From Spirochaetae bacterium HGW-Spirochaetae-1 (GTDB lineage Bacteria > Spirochaetota > UBA4802 > UBA5550): DNA of 64,000 nt. A model generated the notes under the pieces. That model saw nothing but the letters and a program-made list of their open reading frames with translations, was not told the DNA's origin and ran no database searches. The stretch covers positions 281,863 to 345,862 of the forward strand of contig PGXY01000003.1 of NCBI GenBank assembly GCA_002839375.1, written 5' to 3'. The stretch's first letter is position 1, and each line of letters opens with the position of its first letter. The translations under genes were made by a program, and so were the position numbers. This document shows, piece by piece, positions 189 to 34,058 of this stretch.

Positions 189-827
189 TCATTTATAGTG
201 AGAGCGAGCCGTCCATTCCTCTTCATTAATGATAAAATCACCGAAAATGGATGGGGCCTCTTTCTGCAGGGCCTTTAGCATTTCAAGGCACACACGGCGT
301 ATCTCCCACTGCGCCGCCTTTTCGAGCCGCAGAGAGAAAATAGTTCTGAATTCACGGAAATTGGCTGAAAAAACTATCTGGCTTTCCAGGGCATTGGGAA
401 GGACAAAGCGGGCATCCTCCTTTCTGGCTCCCGCTTCCCGCAGCATTTCATAAGTCTTCCGCGATGTTTCGATATACTCGCGGAATATACGGGCCGCCTC
501 GTCGTTCTCCATGATCGACGGCGGAATGACATAGTTAAATTCCGATTCATCGACATAGCGCTGGGACTGCTGTGAATAGCTGGCCAGGCGGTGCCGCACC
601 AGCTGATGGGTGAAGGCCCGTGATGCTCCCAGTATTCTGAATGTGGCGCTTGCATGTTCTATGATACTGAGGTGTCCGCGGCGAATGGCAGCCTGGATAA
701 AATTATCGGAACTGTTTTCCGTAATCCGGTCCAGGGAAAGGTAACAGGTTCTGCCCGCCTCTTCGATGAGTTTTTCCGCATTGGGAGTGACTGCAAGAAG
801 TTTCACTTCCGGTTTATTTATTTCCAT
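189..827 (-). CDS. thyX: Flavin-dependent thymidylate synthase ThyX
   Basis: Makes dTMP from dUMP using methylene-tetrahydrofolate as the carbon donor and FAD/NADPH as reductant; cytoplasmic. The 212-residue protein has the ThyX signature RHRX7S at residues 78-88 (RHRLASYSQQS) followed by QRY, which binds FAD and dUMP. Length is normal for the family (about 200-250). The start is the ATG at 827; no strong Shine-Dalgarno is seen. It lies 55 bp downstream of rnfA on the same strand and may be read from the rnf operon. No thyA is in the window. Confidence 0.95.
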   Translation of the reverse strand: MEINKPEVKLLAVTPNAEKLIEEAGRTCYLSLDRITENSSDNFIQAAIRRGHLSIIEHASATFRILGASRAFTHQLVRHRLASYSQQSQRYVDESEFNYVIPPSIMENDEAARIFREYIETSRKTYEMLREAGARKEDARFVLPNALESQIVFSANFREFRTIFSLRLEKAAQWEIRRVCLEMLKALQKEAPSIFGDFIINEEEWTARSHYK

Positions 828-882
828 ATAGTAACACCAGTCCTGTAAATAGACGCCGGGTGCGTCGTTATTCCGGCAACAC

Positions 883-1482
883 TTAAATTTTCATTCCTGA
901 AAAACCGAGAAAGGCCAGGGCCAGAAGTCCCGCTGTAATGAAAGTGATGGGGAGCCCTTTAAGATTTTTGGGGATATCGGCAAGCTCCAGGCGTTCCCGA
1001 ATCCCCGCCATGAGAAGAAGCGCCAGGGTGAATCCCAGTCCGGCTCCAAGTCCCTGCACCACAGATTCCAGAAGTCCCATTTTTGATGTTATAAATCCCG
1101 AATTGATATTAAGCAAAGCTACGCCTAACACGGCACAGTTGGTCGTAATGAGGGGAAGGAAAATTCCCAGGGCCTGATACAGAGACGGCGACACCTTCTG
1201 GATGACCATCTCGACAAGCTGTACGAGCGCGGCAATGACCAGGATGAACGATATTGTACTGAGATACACGATTTCATAAGGAATCAGAATAAACTTGTAG
1301 ATGAGATACGTGAAAAATGATGCCATTACCATGACGAATATTACTGCCAGTCCCATACCCAGGGCTGAATCAAGCTTTTTCGATACACCGAGAAAGGGGC
1401 AAAGTCCCAGCATCTGGGAGAGGACATAGTTATTTATAAAAATCGTGCTGATGAGTATTCCGAGAAGAATTTTTATTTCCAT
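883..1482 (-). CDS. rnfA: Rnf electron transport complex subunit RnfA
   Basis: Integral membrane subunit of Rnf, the ferredoxin:NAD+ oxidoreductase that pumps Na+ or H+. The 199-residue protein has six hydrophobic segments and the two RnfA/NqrE half-site motifs that carry the shared membrane [2Fe-2S] cysteines: LCPFLGV (about residue 27) and [10 protein letters not shown] (about 112). Last gene of the rnfCDGEA cluster, 4 bp after rnfE. In most genomes rnfB follows or is nearby; here the next gene is thyX. Confidence 0.95.
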
Positions 1483-1486
1483 AGCA

Positions 1487-2077
1487 TTACCCTTTGCGAG
1501 AATTGATGGCGTTCATGCCCCAGAGCATGAGCCCCAATGTAAAAAATGCTCCCGGGGCAAGGATCATGGCCGTCGATGGCTGCATGCCCGGTATAAGCGT
1601 CAGGCCGAAGAGTTTGTTGGCTCCCAGGCTTTCCCTGACAAAGGCCAAAGCGGATAGTGTCAGACCAAAGCCGAGCCCCATACCCAGGCCATCGAGAATG
1701 GAAGTTATGATACCGTTTTTTGACGCGAATTCTTCGGCCCTTCCCAGGATTATGCAGTTCACCACGATGAGGGGAATGAATATGCCCAGAGCCTTGTACA
1801 CACCGGGCTGAAAGGCATTGAGCATCAGTTCCACAACGGTAACAAAGGTGGCGATAATACTGATAAAAATCGGCATCCGTATGTGATCCGGGACAAATCC
1901 TTTCACAAGGGAAACGATCAGGTTGGAACCCGTAAGGACAAAGGTTGTGGCAAGTGTCATCCAGAAGGCATTGGAAACCGACGTTGATACGGCCAGGGTG
2001 GGACACATGCCGATGCCGATGACCAGAATGGGATTTTTTGCCCATATGCCCTTTTTAAACTCCGACCAGTAATTCAT
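1487..2077 (-). CDS. rnfE: Rnf electron transport complex subunit RnfE
   Basis: Membrane subunit paralogous to RnfA and homologous to NqrD. The 196-residue protein has several membrane segments and the matching cysteine motifs GMCPTLAVS (near residue 24) and [10 protein letters not shown] (near 110), which in Rnf/Nqr form the intramembrane iron-sulfur site together with RnfA. Its start overlaps the end of rnfG by 4 bp, a sign of translational coupling. Confidence 0.95.
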
Positions 2078-2766
2078 TTCTGCCCCCCCGCACTGTTCGA
2101 TTCCGCCGACAAGGCCTTCTGCAGTTTTTTAAAACCTGAATCAAGACTCCTGATAACGGCCCGGCCCGTAATGGTAGCGCCGGTGATCGATGTTATGGCA
2201 TTACGCTCCATGAGCTCATTCTTCATTGCCGGAGACCAGTCTCCCTTTTTCAGAATATTAATGCCGCTGTCCAGACTTAGACCGGAAAATTGCTCCTGGA
2301 ACCAGGGCAACATATTTCCGTCATCACCATTTTTAACCCCCGTTAGTTTGCCGAATAATGTATTCTGGCTGGCAATTTCCATACAGCGGGCTCCCAGGCC
2401 CGGCGTCTCGGTCTGGTTCAGGATGGAGATTCCCAGTATCCTGTTATTCTCATCTACACCTACGATGGATTCTACGGGACCGCCGTATCCGGCACTGGCG
2501 GCGATAAAGGCGTATGCCTTGACGGGTTTTCCATCAACTTCCTTTTCCCCGATCCAGTAATGAAACGCCGCGTGGTCAATTTCAGTTTTATTTTCTTTAA
2601 CAATCTTATAGCCGGGCAATATGAGAAGGAGAGCGTTATCCTGTTTTACTTTTTTTTGCTTCAAAATATTGGGATAGGTAATTTTCTCTACATGCGAGAG
2701 CACAAATGCAGCAATAAAAGCAACAGCCGTAAGAATTAATGTGGGCTTGATAATAGTATTCATCAT
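2074..2766 (-). CDS. rnfG: Rnf complex flavoprotein subunit RnfG
   Basis: Covalent-FMN subunit of Rnf, homologous to NqrC. The 230-residue protein has one N-terminal membrane anchor (about residues 7-25) and then a domain outside the cytoplasm. The FMN attachment site fits the [S/T]GAT-x-[S/T] pattern in ITGATITGRAV near residue 200; FMN is normally linked to the last Thr by an ApbE-type transferase, which is not in this window. Between rnfD and rnfE in the usual order. Confidence 0.94.
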   Translation of the reverse strand: MMNTIIKPTLILTAVAFIAAFVLSHVEKITYPNILKQKKVKQDNALLLILPGYKIVKENKTEIDHAAFHYWIGEKEVDGKPVKAYAFIAASAGYGGPVESIVGVDENNRILGISILNQTETPGLGARCMEIASQNTLFGKLTGVKNGDDGNMLPWFQEQFSGLSLDSGINILKKGDWSPAMKNELMERNAITSITGATITGRAVIRSLDSGFKKLQKALSAESNSAGGQK

Positions 2767-27464: not shown

Positions 27465-30400
27465 TTGGCCGTCACGGGGTATACTGACACTATAAAAATA
27501 AAAAATCCCATTGTTATCGAGACCCGTACACCCATGGAAAAAGCCCTTGAAAGAAGTATCGCCAGCAGCCTCTGCCGTTTCCGCGTAGAAGATGAAGATC
27601 TTATTACCGATGCAAAAGTGAAGGCCGAGATAGCCCAGGCCTTCAGGGAAAAACGATGCTTCGGATTCTATCCCGACCGGGACACGGTGTCCCGCATTAA
27701 AGACGGCGACCCCGTTGAGATATTCAGGGAACGTTTCCTGGACATGCTCAACCGCATATTCGACAGCGAGGCCGATGGCGATCAGACTATCCGTAACAGG
27801 CTGGCCAGCGATACCAGGCTCATCTCACGTATCATCTTAGCCCTGGCCTTCTTTCACCGGGCCGTTGCCGAAGGACAGTTCACCTCTATATATGACCGGC
27901 GGATAGTGCTGATTAAGGAACGGGCCGGCATGCCCACCCTGTATCATATATCACGGGAATCTACGGTCATATCCCACGTGGGCCAGGGTCCTCCCTGGAC
28001 TGAAATTCCCACCATATACCTGGGCTTAAATATTTTTTTCGCCCTGACAGCCGAGCAAAAAAAGGGGGGAAATGATCTCTTCGAGGCCTTCAAACTGCTC
28101 CTCATGGTGGAAGAACGGACAATTGAAACCGGGTATGTCCATGAAGTGGCCTTTCCTCCCCAGGTATCTCGCGCCCTGGTATTCCTGGTTGAACAGGTCA
28201 TTGATTCCACTGTCATGGAGGAAATCGAGTGGATCGCCCCCGAGGTTAAGCCGGTCAAAAAATTCACCGACGCCAACAGGAAAAACCTCCTGCGTGACCT
28301 GGACACCCGTGTTCACGACGATGAATTGAACTTTGATTACGAAAAAAACCTCCACGCCGTCACGACGCTGGAACGGCTCGCCCGTCGTTATAAAAACAGT
28401 GATGACCGGAAAACACTCCATGAAGTCATGCGGCTTCTGGTGGCCGCTTCGGGACATGACATACATGAAGTGCGGAACAAGGCAAACATGCTCATCGAGA
28501 GAATTTTGTCCCCGAAGGAATTCGATGCTCCACTGGCGACCAAATTTATAAATATCAGCATCGGCGATTCATACTTGTTCACCTTCAGGAACCTTGACAG
28601 TAAAATTAAGGGATACTATCTTCGCATATATAAAAACCGCAGCGGCGCGGAGCTGACGCTGGAAAAGGAAATCACTTTTGACGAGGTCAGACTCAAGTAC
28701 GATGAGGCGGATAACCTGTTCCGCTGCAAGTTCGCTTTCAAGGAATACGGGCACTACGACTTTGCCGTAATAAGAAAAAAAACCAAGAACATGGAATGGA
28801 TTCACGACCCCGGATGCAACGGCCGGGTCAATGTCATCCCCGATGTGCGGGGTGAAATCATATTGGAAATTTTCACTGACATTCATGGGCATACAAAAGT
28901 ATACTGGCGCAATAATGACGGTCATCCCGGCCTCCTCTATAATGAAAACGGCGAGGTAATACGGCTTGGGAATCTTTCCGATGTGACGGCCCACCTGGAA
29001 GACATTAAAAGCCGTTATTATATCACGGCCATCTATCTCCTGGGAACACAGAAACGGGGGAACAACCGGGAAGACTGGGCTCCCGAGGCATCATCACCAT
29101 CACCCTTCTCCCCCATGAGTCTCATCGAAATCGAACCCTCGCTGGGCGGCGAACAATCCTTTAAAAAGCTGGTAAGCCGCGCCCATGAACTGAATATCAA
29201 AATCATCGTGGACATCGTCCCCCACATCAACAGGAGGAGCGACCACCTCCCGGACAGTTTCGTGGTGAAAACCTACGATAACGAAGGCAACGTAGTCATG
29301 CGCTCCTCCACGGACGGAAAATACGGGTCATGGAACGACGGCAAACTGCTGAACTACCGTAAATTCGAGATATGGGAATGGCTCACCAGGTCCATCACAA
29401 CGCTCATAGATAACTTTGATATTGACGGGATCCGCTTCGACTCAGCCCATGCCGTTCCCATCATGATGAAAAAAAATAATTATCTCTACACCTATGACGT
29501 AAAGCGCACCCACGAGGAAATGGTTGAAGGCGATATAATCGTCAATGACCGCGAACACGGTCACCACATCACCACCGGTTACTATGACTCGGCCTGCCGG
29601 GACCAGATCTCCGTTCCTCTTCACTATTACATCATGCTCAATGTGGAACGAAAGCTACGGGAACGAAATAAAAATTACTTCATAAATATAGCCGAATGTT
29701 ACTGGGGCCACGAACGTTTCCTCACCAGGACCGGGCTCATCCCCTACAACTCGTCCCTTTTTAAAATCTGTGAAAATATCGTACAGGGAAAAACAGATGT
29801 AAGGGAGATATATCATATCTACGACACCTACTATCCCGCCGTGCTTCCCGAGGGAACCGAATTGCTGGGCATACTGGGCAACCACGACGAACGCCGGGCA
29901 TTGAACACCTTCGGACACCGGGGACTCAGGGCCACCGTAGCCCTCACCTCCTTCATGCATAACATCATCATGGACTACGAAGGGAGCGCCGAGGGTGAGA
30001 GCTGGAAGGTGTTCCTGGACAACATCTTTGTAAACTGGAACCAGTTTGAATACGCATCGCACCGCAGCGTCGACCCCTTTTACCGGGAGTGGTACCGTTT
30101 CCATCGTTCTGCCCGGGGCAAGGGACATCTCATCTGGGCGAATAACAACCAGGTCGCCGCAGCCATGAAATTCACCGGAGATATCGTCTGGATTGGCGCT
30201 TTCAATTTTTCAGATGTGTCGCAGAACATCTCGCTCCAGTTCGATAATCCCACACTCCCCATTCCCGGTGACGCCTGCTACCGCCTCGTCGATGTCATTT
30301 TTTCCGAAACGACAGGCAGGTACGGGTATTACCGCGGAGACGAACTGAAGATTTCACGAATCAACACCGTCGTTTCATATACGGACCGCGTTAAGCTCTT

Positions 30401-32423
30401 CCGGCTTGAAAAAGTAAGTATCGAAGAACACTATCTCGATTTTCTTCGCGATTCCTTCATCCGTCTATGCACACTGGCAGCCGTGGACAGCATACGCTCC
30501 AATTTCGCCTTCTCGGAAATCATGAGCCATTGCGGCAGTTATGACGACGCCGAGGAATTCATAAAAAACAAACTATCCCCGCTCTTCAGTGACAACTACG
30601 AAAACCTGCTCCTGGGACTCAAGAGAGCCGTCTATCACCTGTACAGGAACAACCTGGTTGACGGCCGCGTCCTTTTCAACTACGCACGAAAGTTCGAGCA
30701 CTCAAAAAACACCGTACTGAAAGACCTGGGGGAAAAACTCATCCGCTTCAACAGGCGCGGCCCCCTGGTTTTCATGTCTGCCGAGGCCGATCCCTTTTCA
30801 AAAAGCGGCGGACTTGCCAGCGTCGTGTACGAGCTCCCCCGGGAATTGGCACAACTGGGTGAGGATGTGCATGTAATCACGGGATTGTACCGCCATGGTT
30901 CCGACAAGGAACGCCACAGGATGAACGAAGCGGTAAAGAAACATGGCATCACCTATACGGGAGTCAATGTCCGTTTTTACATCATGGACCGTCCCTGCGA
31001 GGTAGGCGTACATCATGGAATCGTCGACGGCATTCATTATTATCTTCTCGAGCATTATGAATTCTTCGACGGCCTCTACTGGGGATTTACCGCCGAGGAG
31101 AAGCTGCGGCGAAGAGTGGCCTTTGCCCGGTCCTGCGCCGAGGTCATATCGGTCTTTAACCTTGACCCGCACTACACATTCACCAATGACGCGTATATAG
31201 GACTTTTCAACGGAATAGTCAAGTGCGATCCTTATTACGCGAACAGCGAACACTTCCGTAGAAACACCTTTCTCCACATCGTGCACAACGGTGGATGGCA
31301 GTATTTCGACGCCTATAACCGTCACGAACGGGATTTCGACCTTTTCAACCTGTTCAATCTCCCGGCCTGGCGCGCCCATGAATTCTGTGATCCCGTATTC
31401 CGGGACCGCATCAACTGCATGGCCACGGGGATACGATTCGCCGACCGAACCATCACCGTGAGTCCGTCATATGCACGCCAGATAGAATATGCCTGCGACG
31501 GCATGGAGAGAATACTGAATAACGTCATCGGCATCAGCAACGCCATCGGCAGGGATTTCAAAAATACAATCATACAGCGCTACAACTCTTCGAATTTCAT
31601 AGAGCACAACTACATGAAGCTCGTTGACCATATCCGGGAAAACGCCGCACTCCAGGAAAAAATTGAAACAAGATATCCCGAAATACTCAAAAGCGCATAC
31701 GGCGTCGATTCGATCGAGGACCCGACTCGCAATGCTATTGTCAAGCGAATCCGCAACAAGCTCCTGCTGCAGGCCGAGAGGGGCCTTGTTGTCGACCCGG
31801 ATATCATCCTTTTTACCATGATTCACCGCATCTCGGAACAGAAAGGATTTCAGCTTCTTCTCGAGGCCTCCGAGGGCGTGTTCAGAAACCTCGGGTACCA
31901 GGCTATCATCGGCGGTGCCGTATCTTCCGGTGACAGGCGCGGTGATGAAATAGCCCACGGCCTGTACCTCCTTGGACAGTATTACCCGGGGAACGTCAAC
32001 GTCAACTTCGGCTTTCAGGATGTTGCCATCCCGCTTCTGGCATCGGACCTTTTCTGCATGCCGTCCATGCATGAACCGGGAGGCATCAGCCAGCTTGAGG
32101 CCTTCGCAACGGGCTGCCTTGTCGTGGCCCGGGCAACGGGAGGTCTGCGTGACACAGTCCTGCCCATCCTGACACAGGGAAACAGGGTGAAGGGAAACGG
32201 TTTCCTTTTTTCTGATTACCATTCCTGGGCCTTCTATGACGCCATGCAGCGCGCCGCAGCCTTCTTCAGGGATAGCAGTGAAGAAACGGTTCACGCGGCG
32301 CGCATGAACGCGGAAAATTCCGTCTACTACTGGGACAGGCCGGCGAAACAATATGTTCAGACCATATACGACCTGACGGAGACAATCCGTATCTTCGACA
32401 TAGACAATATACCAGGCAGCTGA
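27465..32423 (+). CDS. Fused GH13 amylase-type and GT5 glycogen-synthase-type glucan enzyme
   Basis: A 1652-residue protein without signal peptide. About 1-350: helical domain I do not recognise. About 360-450: beta domain as seen before amylase barrels. About 455-1000: GH13 domain with all four conserved regions, IVDIVPHI (about 580), nucleophile Asp658 in IRFDSAHAVP, acid Glu744 in IAECYW, and Asp808 in GNHDE. About 1100-1640: GT5 domain with the ADP-glucose loop KSGGLA (Lys1113) and the C-terminal EPGGISQLEAFATG motif (Glu1537). Both active sites look intact. The start is a TTG behind a TATAAA box (27428-27433); no clear ribosome site, so the ATG at 27534 is possible. It may make, extend or rearrange an alpha-glucan; the order resembles fungal alpha-1,3-glucan synthases, minus their membrane part. 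Confidence 0.88.
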   Translation: MAVTGYTDTIKIKNPIVIETRTPMEKALERSIASSLCRFRVEDEDLITDAKVKAEIAQAFREKRCFGFYPDRDTVSRIKDGDPVEIFRERFLDMLNRIFDSEADGDQTIRNRLASDTRLISRIILALAFFHRAVAEGQFTSIYDRRIVLIKERAGMPTLYHISRESTVISHVGQGPPWTEIPTIYLGLNIFFALTAEQKKGGNDLFEAFKLLLMVEERTIETGYVHEVAFPPQVSRALVFLVEQVIDSTVMEEIEWIAPEVKPVKKFTDANRKNLLRDLDTRVHDDELNFDYEKNLHAVTTLERLARRYKNSDDRKTLHEVMRLLVAASGHDIHEVRNKANMLIERILSPKEFDAPLATKFINISIGDSYLFTFRNLDSKIKGYYLRIYKNRSGAELTLEKEITFDEVRLKYDEADNLFRCKFAFKEYGHYDFAVIRKKTKNMEWIHDPGCNGRVNVIPDVRGEIILEIFTDIHGHTKVYWRNNDGHPGLLYNENGEVIRLGNLSDVTAHLEDIKSRYYITAIYLLGTQKRGNNREDWAPEASSPSPFSPMSLIEIEPSLGGEQSFKKLVSRAHELNIKIIVDIVPHINRRSDHLPDSFVVKTYDNEGNVVMRSSTDGKYGSWNDGKLLNYRKFEIWEWLTRSITTLIDNFDIDGIRFDSAHAVPIMMKKNNYLYTYDVKRTHEEMVEGDIIVNDREHGHHITTGYYDSACRDQISVPLHYYIMLNVERKLRERNKNYFINIAECYWGHERFLTRTGLIPYNSSLFKICENIVQGKTDVREIYHIYDTYYPAVLPEGTELLGILGNHDERRALNTFGHRGLRATVALTSFMHNIIMDYEGSAEGESWKVFLDNIFVNWNQFEYASHRSVDPFYREWYRFHRSARGKGHLIWANNNQVAAAMKFTGDIVWIGAFNFSDVSQNISLQFDNPTLPIPGDACYRLVDVIFSETTGRYGYYRGDELKISRINTVVSYTDRVKLFRLEKVSIEEHYLDFLRDSFIRLCTLAAVDSIRSNFAFSEIMSHCGSYDDAEEFIKNKLSPLFSDNYENLLLGLKRAVYHLYRNNLVDGRVLFNYARKFEHSKNTVLKDLGEKLIRFNRRGPLVFMSAEADPFSKSGGLASVVYELPRELAQLGEDVHVITGLYRHGSDKERHRMNEAVKKHGITYTGVNVRFYIMDRPCEVGVHHGIVDGIHYYLLEHYEFFDGLYWGFTAEEKLRRRVAFARSCAEVISVFNLDPHYTFTNDAYIGLFNGIVKCDPYYANSEHFRRNTFLHIVHNGGWQYFDAYNRHERDFDLFNLFNLPAWRAHEFCDPVFRDRINCMATGIRFADRTITVSPSYARQIEYACDGMERILNNVIGISNAIGRDFKNTIIQRYNSSNFIEHNYMKLVDHIRENAALQEKIETRYPEILKSAYGVDSIEDPTRNAIVKRIRNKLLLQAERGLVVDPDIILFTMIHRISEQKGFQLLLEASEGVFRNLGYQAIIGGAVSSGDRRGDEIAHGLYLLGQYYPGNVNVNFGFQDVAIPLLASDLFCMPSMHEPGGISQLEAFATGCLVVARATGGLRDTVLPILTQGNRVKGNGFLFSDYHSWAFYDAMQRAAAFFRDSSEETVHAARMNAENSVYYWDRPAKQYVQTIYDLTETIRIFDIDNIPGS

Positions 32424-32439
32424 GAAGCACCGGACAGCC

Positions 32440-33030
32440 ATGAAACTAAAATCAACCATCACGGCGATCTCTTTCGCCTTAATCCTCACGACATGCGGTA
32501 CAACCCCTGCGGACAGGACCGGAGCCCCCATAGACCGTGTCATTAATACCCTGAACGGCGAGCCTGTTATCCCGCGTCGTGCAAACACCATATATATCGA
32601 GCCTTTTCTTAACCGCACGGCTCAGCCCGATATACATGACCGTCTCCATGCCATGCTTAATAAGCATATTACCGATGACGGCAGGCTGGCCATAACCACG
32701 GAAAAAACAATGGCCGATCTTCTGCTGCGCGGTATCATCGTTCAGTACAGGGCGTCACCCGTAACCTTTACCGATTTCGGCCGCCCGGAAAAGGTGCGCC
32801 TGCTCATTGCAATGAACATAATGCTTGTAGACCTGAAAAAAGACAGGGTCATCCTGCAGAATTCCGGCGTACAGGCCTTCAGGACCTTCTCCGAGATAAA
32901 GCCGCCCGTGGAAACCGAATTTCAGGCCCGGGAGCGGTTGATCGAAAGCCTTGCCAAACGGCTATTGTCAATGATAGCATCGGGATGGTACACAGACCAG
33001 ATGACTCCCGTAGAAAAAGGAAAAAAATAA
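32440..33030 (+). CDS. lptE: LptE-like LPS-assembly lipoprotein
   Basis: A 196-residue precursor with signal peptide and lipobox ILTTC (Cys19). The mature part has the LptE pattern of a short fold with an amphipathic helix after IYIEPFLNRTAQPDIHDRL and later strands (LLLRGIIVQYRASPVTF). In E. coli LptE plugs the LptD barrel that inserts LPS. Gene order lptE-holA is the same as in E. coli, which supports the call. Its TAA overlaps the holA ATG (TAATG). If right, the organism carries LPS. Confidence 0.72.
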   Translation: MKLKSTITAISFALILTTCGTTPADRTGAPIDRVINTLNGEPVIPRRANTIYIEPFLNRTAQPDIHDRLHAMLNKHITDDGRLAITTEKTMADLLLRGIIVQYRASPVTFTDFGRPEKVRLLIAMNIMLVDLKKDRVILQNSGVQAFRTFSEIKPPVETEFQARERLIESLAKRLLSMIASGWYTDQMTPVEKGKK

Positions 33031-34058
33031 TGGCCATAAAGAAATATCCCAGCTCAAAAGTTTTCAAGGCCGAACTGGACCGAAAAAAATTATATCCTGC
33101 TTATCTTTTTATGGGGGAGGAAGAGGGAGAAAAGGACAAATTCATCGGCCGTATACTGGATGCCATTTTTAAAAATACCGATGAAAGGCGGAATTCAACG
33201 GGACGTTTTCACATAGACAACGATGAATTCATGGCCGCAGCGGATTTTATCCTGTCGTCATCCATGTTCTCCAGCTCAAAAGTCTGCATCATGAGCAACA
33301 TGGATGCCCTGAAAAATCCCAAATCCTACCAGGCGCTTCTGGAGGATATCATTTTCAACAAACCCGACGGTACGACAATAATAATGACCACGCTTAAAAA
33401 CAGGCCGCCCGATTTCCTCACACAGAAACAGCTCGAAACAATTATGGTCGTCCAGTTCTGGAGATATTTTGACAATGATATTTACAATTACATAATGACG
33501 TGTATCCGAAAAATGGGTCTCACCATCGATGAAAAGGGGATGAATCTCCTCATTGAGAGGACGGGGAAGGACATCAAAAAAATCGATGAGGCGCTGGAGA
33601 TGATACGGTATTCCGGATCGGGTGATATAATCACTGGCCAAACCATAGCCGGTCTTCTGCACGACGTAAGCGAGGTTTCCCTCTTTGACTTTACGGACCT
33701 TCTTTTTAAAAAGGATAGAAGGGCGATTCCGCTCTACAAGAAACTGATCGATGAAGGAATTCCCGAGGGCCGCATTTTTTTCGAGATAACCCGACAATTT
33801 GATCTGTTGGAAAAATATTATTCATTCACCGAAGCCGGCATGGCCGTCGACGAGGCCGTTGAAAAATGCGGCATCAACCAGAAAAGCCGGGAAAAATTCA
33901 TGGCCTCCACGCGTGCGTTTCCCGGTGAGTCGCTGAAAAAGCTTTATCCCCTTATAGCCCGAACCGACTACAGGAGAAAAAGCTCTTCCTCATATGGCGA
34001 CATTACGGCAACTCCCACGTTCATTCTCGTGGCGGATATCGTCACCGCTCAGAGATAA
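33030..34058 (+). CDS. holA: DNA polymerase III subunit delta
   Basis: Clamp-loader subunit that opens the beta sliding clamp. The 342-residue protein shows the delta layout: N-terminal domain (YPAYLFMGEEEGEKDKFI, about 18-35), a region like VCIMSNMDAL..KPDGTTIIM, the central RTGKDIKKIDEALEMI segment (about 188-203), and C-terminal SLKKLYPLIARTDYRRKSS. Start at 33030 is set by the TAATG overlap with lptE; frames opening earlier would run into lptE. Its 3' end overlaps the convergent HEAT-repeat gene by 10 bp. Confidence 0.88.
   Translation: MAIKKYPSSKVFKAELDRKKLYPAYLFMGEEEGEKDKFIGRILDAIFKNTDERRNSTGRFHIDNDEFMAAADFILSSSMFSSSKVCIMSNMDALKNPKSYQALLEDIIFNKPDGTTIIMTTLKNRPPDFLTQKQLETIMVVQFWRYFDNDIYNYIMTCIRKMGLTIDEKGMNLLIERTGKDIKKIDEALEMIRYSGSGDIITGQTIAGLLHDVSEVSLFDFTDLLFKKDRRAIPLYKKLIDEGIPEGRIFFEITRQFDLLEKYYSFTEAGMAVDEAVEKCGINQKSREKFMASTRAFPGESLKKLYPLIARTDYRRKSSSSYGDITATPTFILVADIVTAQR

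Follow-up and report, generated by a model that had tools for sequence, protein, structure and literature searches.

Introduction

Can one bacterial polypeptide both lengthen and remodel an alpha-glucan, and if so, which polymer does it serve? The question is raised by a single open reading frame of Spirochaetae bacterium HGW-Spirochaetae-1, located at 27465..32423 (+) of the 64,000-nucleotide stretch of DNA analysed here (the window). The frame, 1652 codons counted from a TTG, encodes in one chain an uncharacterised N-terminal module, a GH13 domain and a GT5 domain, in that order. The original prediction read the frame as a pair of alpha-glucan enzymes, both apparently active, by which a glucan may be elongated and remodelled, and the core residues of both domains are indeed kept, in line with such a role. 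We put the probability that the protein is a bifunctional alpha-glucan (glycogen) synthase and glucan transferase, the latter most likely branching, at roughly one in two.

Results

The fusion is a genuine single chain

The open frame and its Pfam domains bear out the predicted single 1652-residue frame. The TTG start is doubtful; judged from the homologues, whose starts converge near '..SSLCRF', the ATG at 27534 (codon 24) is the likelier start and gives a protein of 1629 aa. A helical linker between the GH13 and GT5 domains (residues ~985-1090; 30417..30734 (+)) was recognised from the helices that end the GH13 model and from its low conservation.

A chance or frameshift artefact was ruled out by 35 further distinct sequences of identical architecture. 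Dozens of other genomes carry the fusion uninterrupted, with 55-66% identity; it is therefore no sequencing artefact, and its two halves do not fall into separate reading frames. One relative (G007, L018) carries an in-frame stop near residue ~1130, where the GT5 domain starts, reflecting either a sequencing error or a split gene. Over the GT5 region lies an antisense frame (31467-32618 (-), 383 codons); its recurrence in relatives shadows the conservation of the sense frame.

As had been anticipated, no transmembrane segment was found: the maximal 19-residue Kyte-Doolittle mean is 1.32, and the hydropathy scan detected no strongly hydrophobic stretch of the kind expected of a signal peptide or a transmembrane helix. 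The protein is probably soluble and cytosolic.

Distribution of the fusion

The fusion was found in 44 of the 46 sampled genomes of the order. In 43 of them the N-terminal module and GH13 domain are encoded as a fusion, and in the remaining one (G005) the C-terminal end of the fusion lies at a contig edge. The two genomes lacking it are G013 (73% complete) and G028 (96% complete). In the latter (L154, contig 55, 4228-6800), a GT4/GT5-like glycosyltransferase adjoins a GH57 enzyme, a pair that perhaps constitutes an alternative alpha-glucan system. Families f10 and f28 also include a few genomes that encode the fusion; the rest of the phylum sample, which comprised 393 genomes in total, gave no comparable match.

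Across these 393 genomes, a GH13 domain of this type occurs only within the fusion. The separation is sharp: essentially complete copies score >1066 bits with the GH13 profile, lower scores arise only from contig-split fragments, and everything else stays at ≤46 bits. A tblastn search of a plasmid collection returned, among the matches listed, stand-alone GlgA only and no fusion. Beyond the phylum, contigs were scanned with exact 8-residue patterns, which reach close relatives only, so that more distant fusions may exist there. A copy assigned to 'Candidatus Stahlbacteria' (L041) probably reflects mis-binning of spirochaete DNA: its contig, 5.7 kb long, holds the fusion alone, and the tree places its GT5 domain within the order.

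The fusion is thus near-universal in one order, while the family is not described in the open-access literature searched; the possibility that it was already known as common in spirochaetes, which the original prediction had named as a challenge to its novelty, therefore holds for its frequency and not for its description. The fusion is conserved and probably functional.

A novel N-terminal module precedes the catalytic domains

The N-terminal module (residues ~30-350, about 330 residues; 27552..28514 (+)) appears in the AlphaFold2 model as an alpha/beta and helical structure, weakly HEAT/TPR-like (pLDDT 88 for the N-terminal part). It gave no Pfam match above cut-off, the HEAT/TPR-like matches being sub-threshold, and a PDB profile search returned nothing convincing. 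The top 50 Foldseek matches of the N-terminal model were Ig-like folds, none evidently matching the alpha/beta-helical module. An Ig-like beta-sandwich (residues ~360-458; 28542..28838 (+)), defined by the strands of the model and by the Foldseek Ig folds, lies immediately before the GH13 barrel. The N-terminal module was never seen outside the fusion in the phylum search of 393 sampled genomes. Mean column identity of the N-terminus is 61%, versus 76% for GH13, the best conserved part of the protein, and 73% for GT5. The module and the beta-sandwich would probably hold the glucan, or keep the domains together.

The GT5 domain resembles an active glycogen synthase

The GT-B domain of family GT5 occupies residues ~1102-1637 (30768..32375 (+)). 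Pfam recognises Glyco_transf_5 (PF08323) at residues 1102-1352 (E 1e-35, 123.7 bits versus a cut-off of 22.7) and Glycos_transf_1 (PF00534) at residues 1448-1587, and the best PDB matches are glycogen and starch synthases. Residues K1113, H1274, R1455, K1460 and E1537 align with K15, H161, R300, K305 and E377 of E. coli GlgA. Those of them that were counted over the members are invariant (36/36); H1274 was placed by a separate alignment. K1113 (30801..30803 (+)) lies in the predicted KSGGL motif and E1537 (32073..32075 (+)) in EPGG.

The domain thus has in common with bacterial GlgA the GT5 fold and the core active-site residues, but diverges from it in other respects. Its score with the GlgA model TIGR02095 (209.8 bits) does not reach the curated cut-off of 328.45, whereas the stand-alone GlgAs of relatives score ~529 bits, and two GlgA residues are replaced, D21 by S/N and C379 by G. 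In a tree of the 36 fusion domains and 30 stand-alone GlgAs, to which long-branch warnings apply, the fusion domains form one fully supported clade on a stem of ~4.2 changes per site. By its residues, the GT5 domain is likely to be active as an alpha-1,4-glucan synthase.

The GH13 domain is complete and of unassigned type

The GH13 barrel and its C-terminal beta domain span residues ~464-983 (28854..30413 (+); best Foldseek E 4e-18). Alpha-amylase (PF00128) is matched by 36/36 members; scores of 36.5-42.1 bits exceed the cut-off of 22 for GH13 superfamily membership. In our protein the match covers ~502-586 and one further stretch (E 4e-9). All four GH13 regions are present, as predicted. Region I is DIVPHINR (29211..29234 (+)), with D583, H587, N589 and R590 invariant in 36/36 sequences. 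Region II, GIRFDSAHAVP (29427..29459 (+)), holds an R-x-D-x-x-H-x-x-P motif. Its aspartate D659 (GAC, 29439-29441), the nucleophile, falls in an invariant column of the alignment. The acid/base E744 (29694..29696 (+)) stands in AECYWG of region III, and the transition-state stabiliser lies within H807-D808 (29883..29888 (+)) in GNHDERR of region IV, both invariant in 36/36. The Asp/Glu/Asp triad is therefore D659, E744 and D808; the original prediction had Glu744 and Asp808 right, but had placed the nucleophile at Asp658.

Which reaction the domain catalyses is less easily read. Branching-enzyme models are its top NCBIfam matches, found by all 36 members, and branching enzymes are its top PDB sequence matches, although the likeness spans only ~100-150 residues. 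In hhalign comparisons, which also included sucrose-phosphorylase-like proteins, branching enzymes scored 94.6, GlgX 87.1 and alpha-glucosidase 56; the lead of branching enzymes over GlgX is slight and not decisive. With GlgB (GH13_8/9), its best profile match, the domain has in common a W-D-x-x-x-x-N-Y...E-V stretch before region II, while regions II and IV are unlike, and it falls far under the curated GlgB cut-offs (34.6 versus 741 bits and 25 versus 463.95 bits). The AlphaFold2 model of the barrel is moderate (pLDDT 75, pTM 0.77), and its Foldseek matches are generic GH13 enzymes, including maltogenic amylases, CGTases and GlgE.

The region II motif is found in the human debranching enzyme (8zeq) and in GlgE (3zss/5vsj), both transferases, and was not seen in E. 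coli GlgB or GlgX or in the scanned spirochaete GlgB, GlgX and alpha-glucosidase sequences. The eukaryotic debranching enzyme (GH13_25) and GlgE (GH13_3) also have a region III of the A-E-x-[FY] type, but they differ from the fusion in their accessory domains, and no family-level HMM match links either of them to it. Taken at the level of sequence, the domain looks like a new subfamily outside the curated ones, and it is probably a transferase rather than a plain hydrolase.

Pathway inventory and the role of the GH13 domain

The genome of HGW-Spirochaetae-1 encodes two phosphorylases (GlgP), GlgX and MalQ. Besides the fusion it has no other GT5/GlgA, except a borderline GT4-like protein of 420 aa. 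Its other GH13 proteins (two alpha-glucosidase-like, one sucrose-phosphorylase-like and GlgX) include no GlgB, GH57 is wholly absent, and hence there is no GH57 branching enzyme; no GlgC exceeds the cut-off. The sucrose phosphorylase-like type is represented by a 630-aa GH13 protein (L005; G000 contig 2, ~166 kb), below cut-off and with an N-terminal extension of ~100 aa, possibly an amylosucrase-type enzyme and hence another source of alpha-glucan.

This gap extends to relatives. GlgB over cut-off is found in 0/46 genomes of the order, where a single sub-threshold match reaches 93 bits. Other GlgA, GlgC and GH57 branching enzyme are all lacking in 12 of the 14 fusion-bearing genomes at least 90% complete of the organism's own family (f1) and in both such genomes of family f3, giving a total of 14 genomes with the same synthase and branching-enzyme gap. 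Without a canonical GlgC in these two families, the donor may differ from GlgC-made ADP-glucose. A GlgD-like protein of ~390-412 aa (L085; G000 contig 1, ~291 kb), also present in many genomes of the order, keeps the hexapeptide C-terminus and has neither a GGxGTRL motif nor an NTP-transferase Pfam match; it is a candidate partner or regulator for donor synthesis.

The picture is different in f5, f7 and most of f6, where the fusion is accompanied by stand-alone GlgA and by GH57 proteins as long as branching enzymes. Two of these GH57 proteins (from f5 and f6) are confirmed branching enzymes, and f5 and f7 also have GlgC. There the fusion is not the sole synthase, and it may have another job. 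Across the order, the fusion is near-universal and the classical pathway is patchy.

These data bear on the strongest competing explanation, in which GH13 acts as a 4-alpha-glucanotransferase or an amylase on the alpha-1,4 chains made by GT5, trimming, disproportionating or priming them; the product would then be an unbranched, linear alpha-glucan or a primer. The region II motif occurs in the 4-alpha-glucanotransferase half of the eukaryotic debranching enzyme, the fold matches to maltogenic amylases and CGTases point the same way, and the real GH57 branching enzymes alongside the fusion in some families leave room for a non-branching role. However, the presence of GlgX points to a branched substrate, disproportionation is already supplied by MalQ, and branching-enzyme profiles rank first, so that we regard this explanation as unlikely, if the most serious of those considered. 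Branching is the most economical reading of the GH13 role; as an assignment of that specific activity, based on the lack of another branching enzyme, it stands at slightly under even odds.

Gene neighbourhood and the nature of the polymer

An LptE-like lipoprotein gene (32440..33030 (+), PF04390) begins 16 bp downstream of the fusion gene and is followed by holA, encoding DNA polymerase III delta (32985..34058 (+), PF21694); both are supported by synteny and are kept directly downstream of the fusion gene in most of the order. Many bacteria have lptE-holA as a housekeeping pair. In outgroup genomes the neighbours are different: malQ overlaps the fusion gene in one (L076), malQ and glgX accompany it in another (L077), and a GDE_N glycogen-debranching gene in a third (L078). 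The original statement that no glg genes flank the fusion is accurate within the window, but does not extend to these outgroup families. Downstream of the fusion in the first of these genomes, a gene at 273-2108 (-) of L076 encodes a 612-aa protein that matches GlcNAc 2-epimerase.

The association with an lptE-like gene, and a GH13-GT5 order like that of fungal Ags1 (PMC5753165), could suggest that the alpha-glucan made by the fusion belongs to the cell surface or envelope and is not a storage polymer. In Ags1, however, membrane segments connect a GH13 outside the cell to a GT5 inside it (PMC5753165), whereas the spirochaete chain has no strongly hydrophobic segment. The downstream genes belong to a common housekeeping pair, and malQ, glgX and a debranching gene are the outgroup neighbours; an envelope role is accordingly improbable. 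Between the storage and cell-surface polymers originally proposed, the genome inventory together with these outgroup neighbours favours a storage alpha-glucan.

Discussion

Comparison with known synthase fusions

The fungal and spirochaete proteins have in common GH13 followed by GT5 in a single chain, both probably combining a transferase and a synthase. Ags1 is nevertheless a multi-transmembrane protein that makes alpha-1,3-glucan, and no Ags appeared among the PDB sequence or fold matches through which the GH13 and GT5 domains were compared. Beyond the domain order, these searches gave no support for the specific link to fungal alpha-1,3-glucan synthase drawn at the outset.

A closer parallel is the GlgA-GlgB fusion of the chlamydiae Waddlia chondrophila and Estrella lausannensis. 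It is confined to two families, a nonsense mutation truncates one of its members, no branching activity was detected, and a GlgE pathway takes over (PMC7935935). Its authors called it exceptional in all domains of life, no other such fusion having been reported (PMC7935935). Both fusions join a GT5 glycogen synthase and a GH13 alpha-glucan enzyme in one chain, and glgC is missing in both. In the chlamydial protein, however, GT5 comes first, the partner is an ordinary GlgB and the gene is decaying, whereas the spirochaete protein has GH13 first, not of the ordinary GlgB type, a novel N-terminal module and order-wide conservation. The consulted part of a 2024 review names no case of a spirochaete fusion (PMC11046441). 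The protein is a variant of synthase-plus-GH13 fusions, new through a GH13 domain of unassigned type.

Two further explanations are very improbable. In a GlgE-like scheme, GT5 would make maltose-1-phosphate or short donors and GH13 would polymerise maltosyl units, as the GlgE fold matches and the common region II motif might suggest, but the fusion has no GlgE-specific Pfam or NCBIfam match, its GH13 sequence is closer to branching enzymes, and known maltose-1-phosphate synthases belong to GT4, not GT5 (PMC11046441). That one domain is catalytically dead, with a glucan-binding or regulatory role, has a precedent in the inactive chlamydial branching half (PMC7935935) and might agree with the loss of D21 and C379, but it fits poorly with core catalytic residues kept in both domains over 36 diverged sequences and with GH13 as the most conserved part.

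Proposed mechanism and significance

For the synthase-transferase that we favour, the GT5 domain would lengthen alpha-1,4 chains. With D659 carrying the covalent glucosyl-enzyme intermediate and E744 serving as acid/base, the GH13 domain would then cut the growing chain and re-transfer the pieces, most likely onto a 6-OH, creating branch points that would replace those of the missing GlgB. Both activities, as well as the alpha-1,6 specificity, the donor and substrate channelling, are what we infer from the protein and its genomic setting.

A bolder version, which we hold only tentatively and think somewhat less likely than its converse, is that this single protein builds branched glycogen alone and that its GH13 domain defines a new branching-enzyme subfamily, the fusion replacing GlgA plus GlgB across a deep spirochaete lineage and working without canonical GlgC in f1 and f3, perhaps on a donor that is not ADP-glucose from GlgC.

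In many of these bacteria, the fusion is the only candidate from known families for building and branching glycogen. In the literature searched, the sole GlgA-GlgB fusion is the decaying gene of chlamydiae with its dead branching half. A synthase-transferase chain kept throughout an order, with a GH13 domain outside the curated subfamilies, would be evidence that one enzyme can stably couple the elongation of glycogen to its remodelling. Genomes that standard annotation would score as glycogen-deficient would gain the branching-enzyme candidate they lack, and the making of branched alpha-glucan would gain a natural single-enzyme tool.
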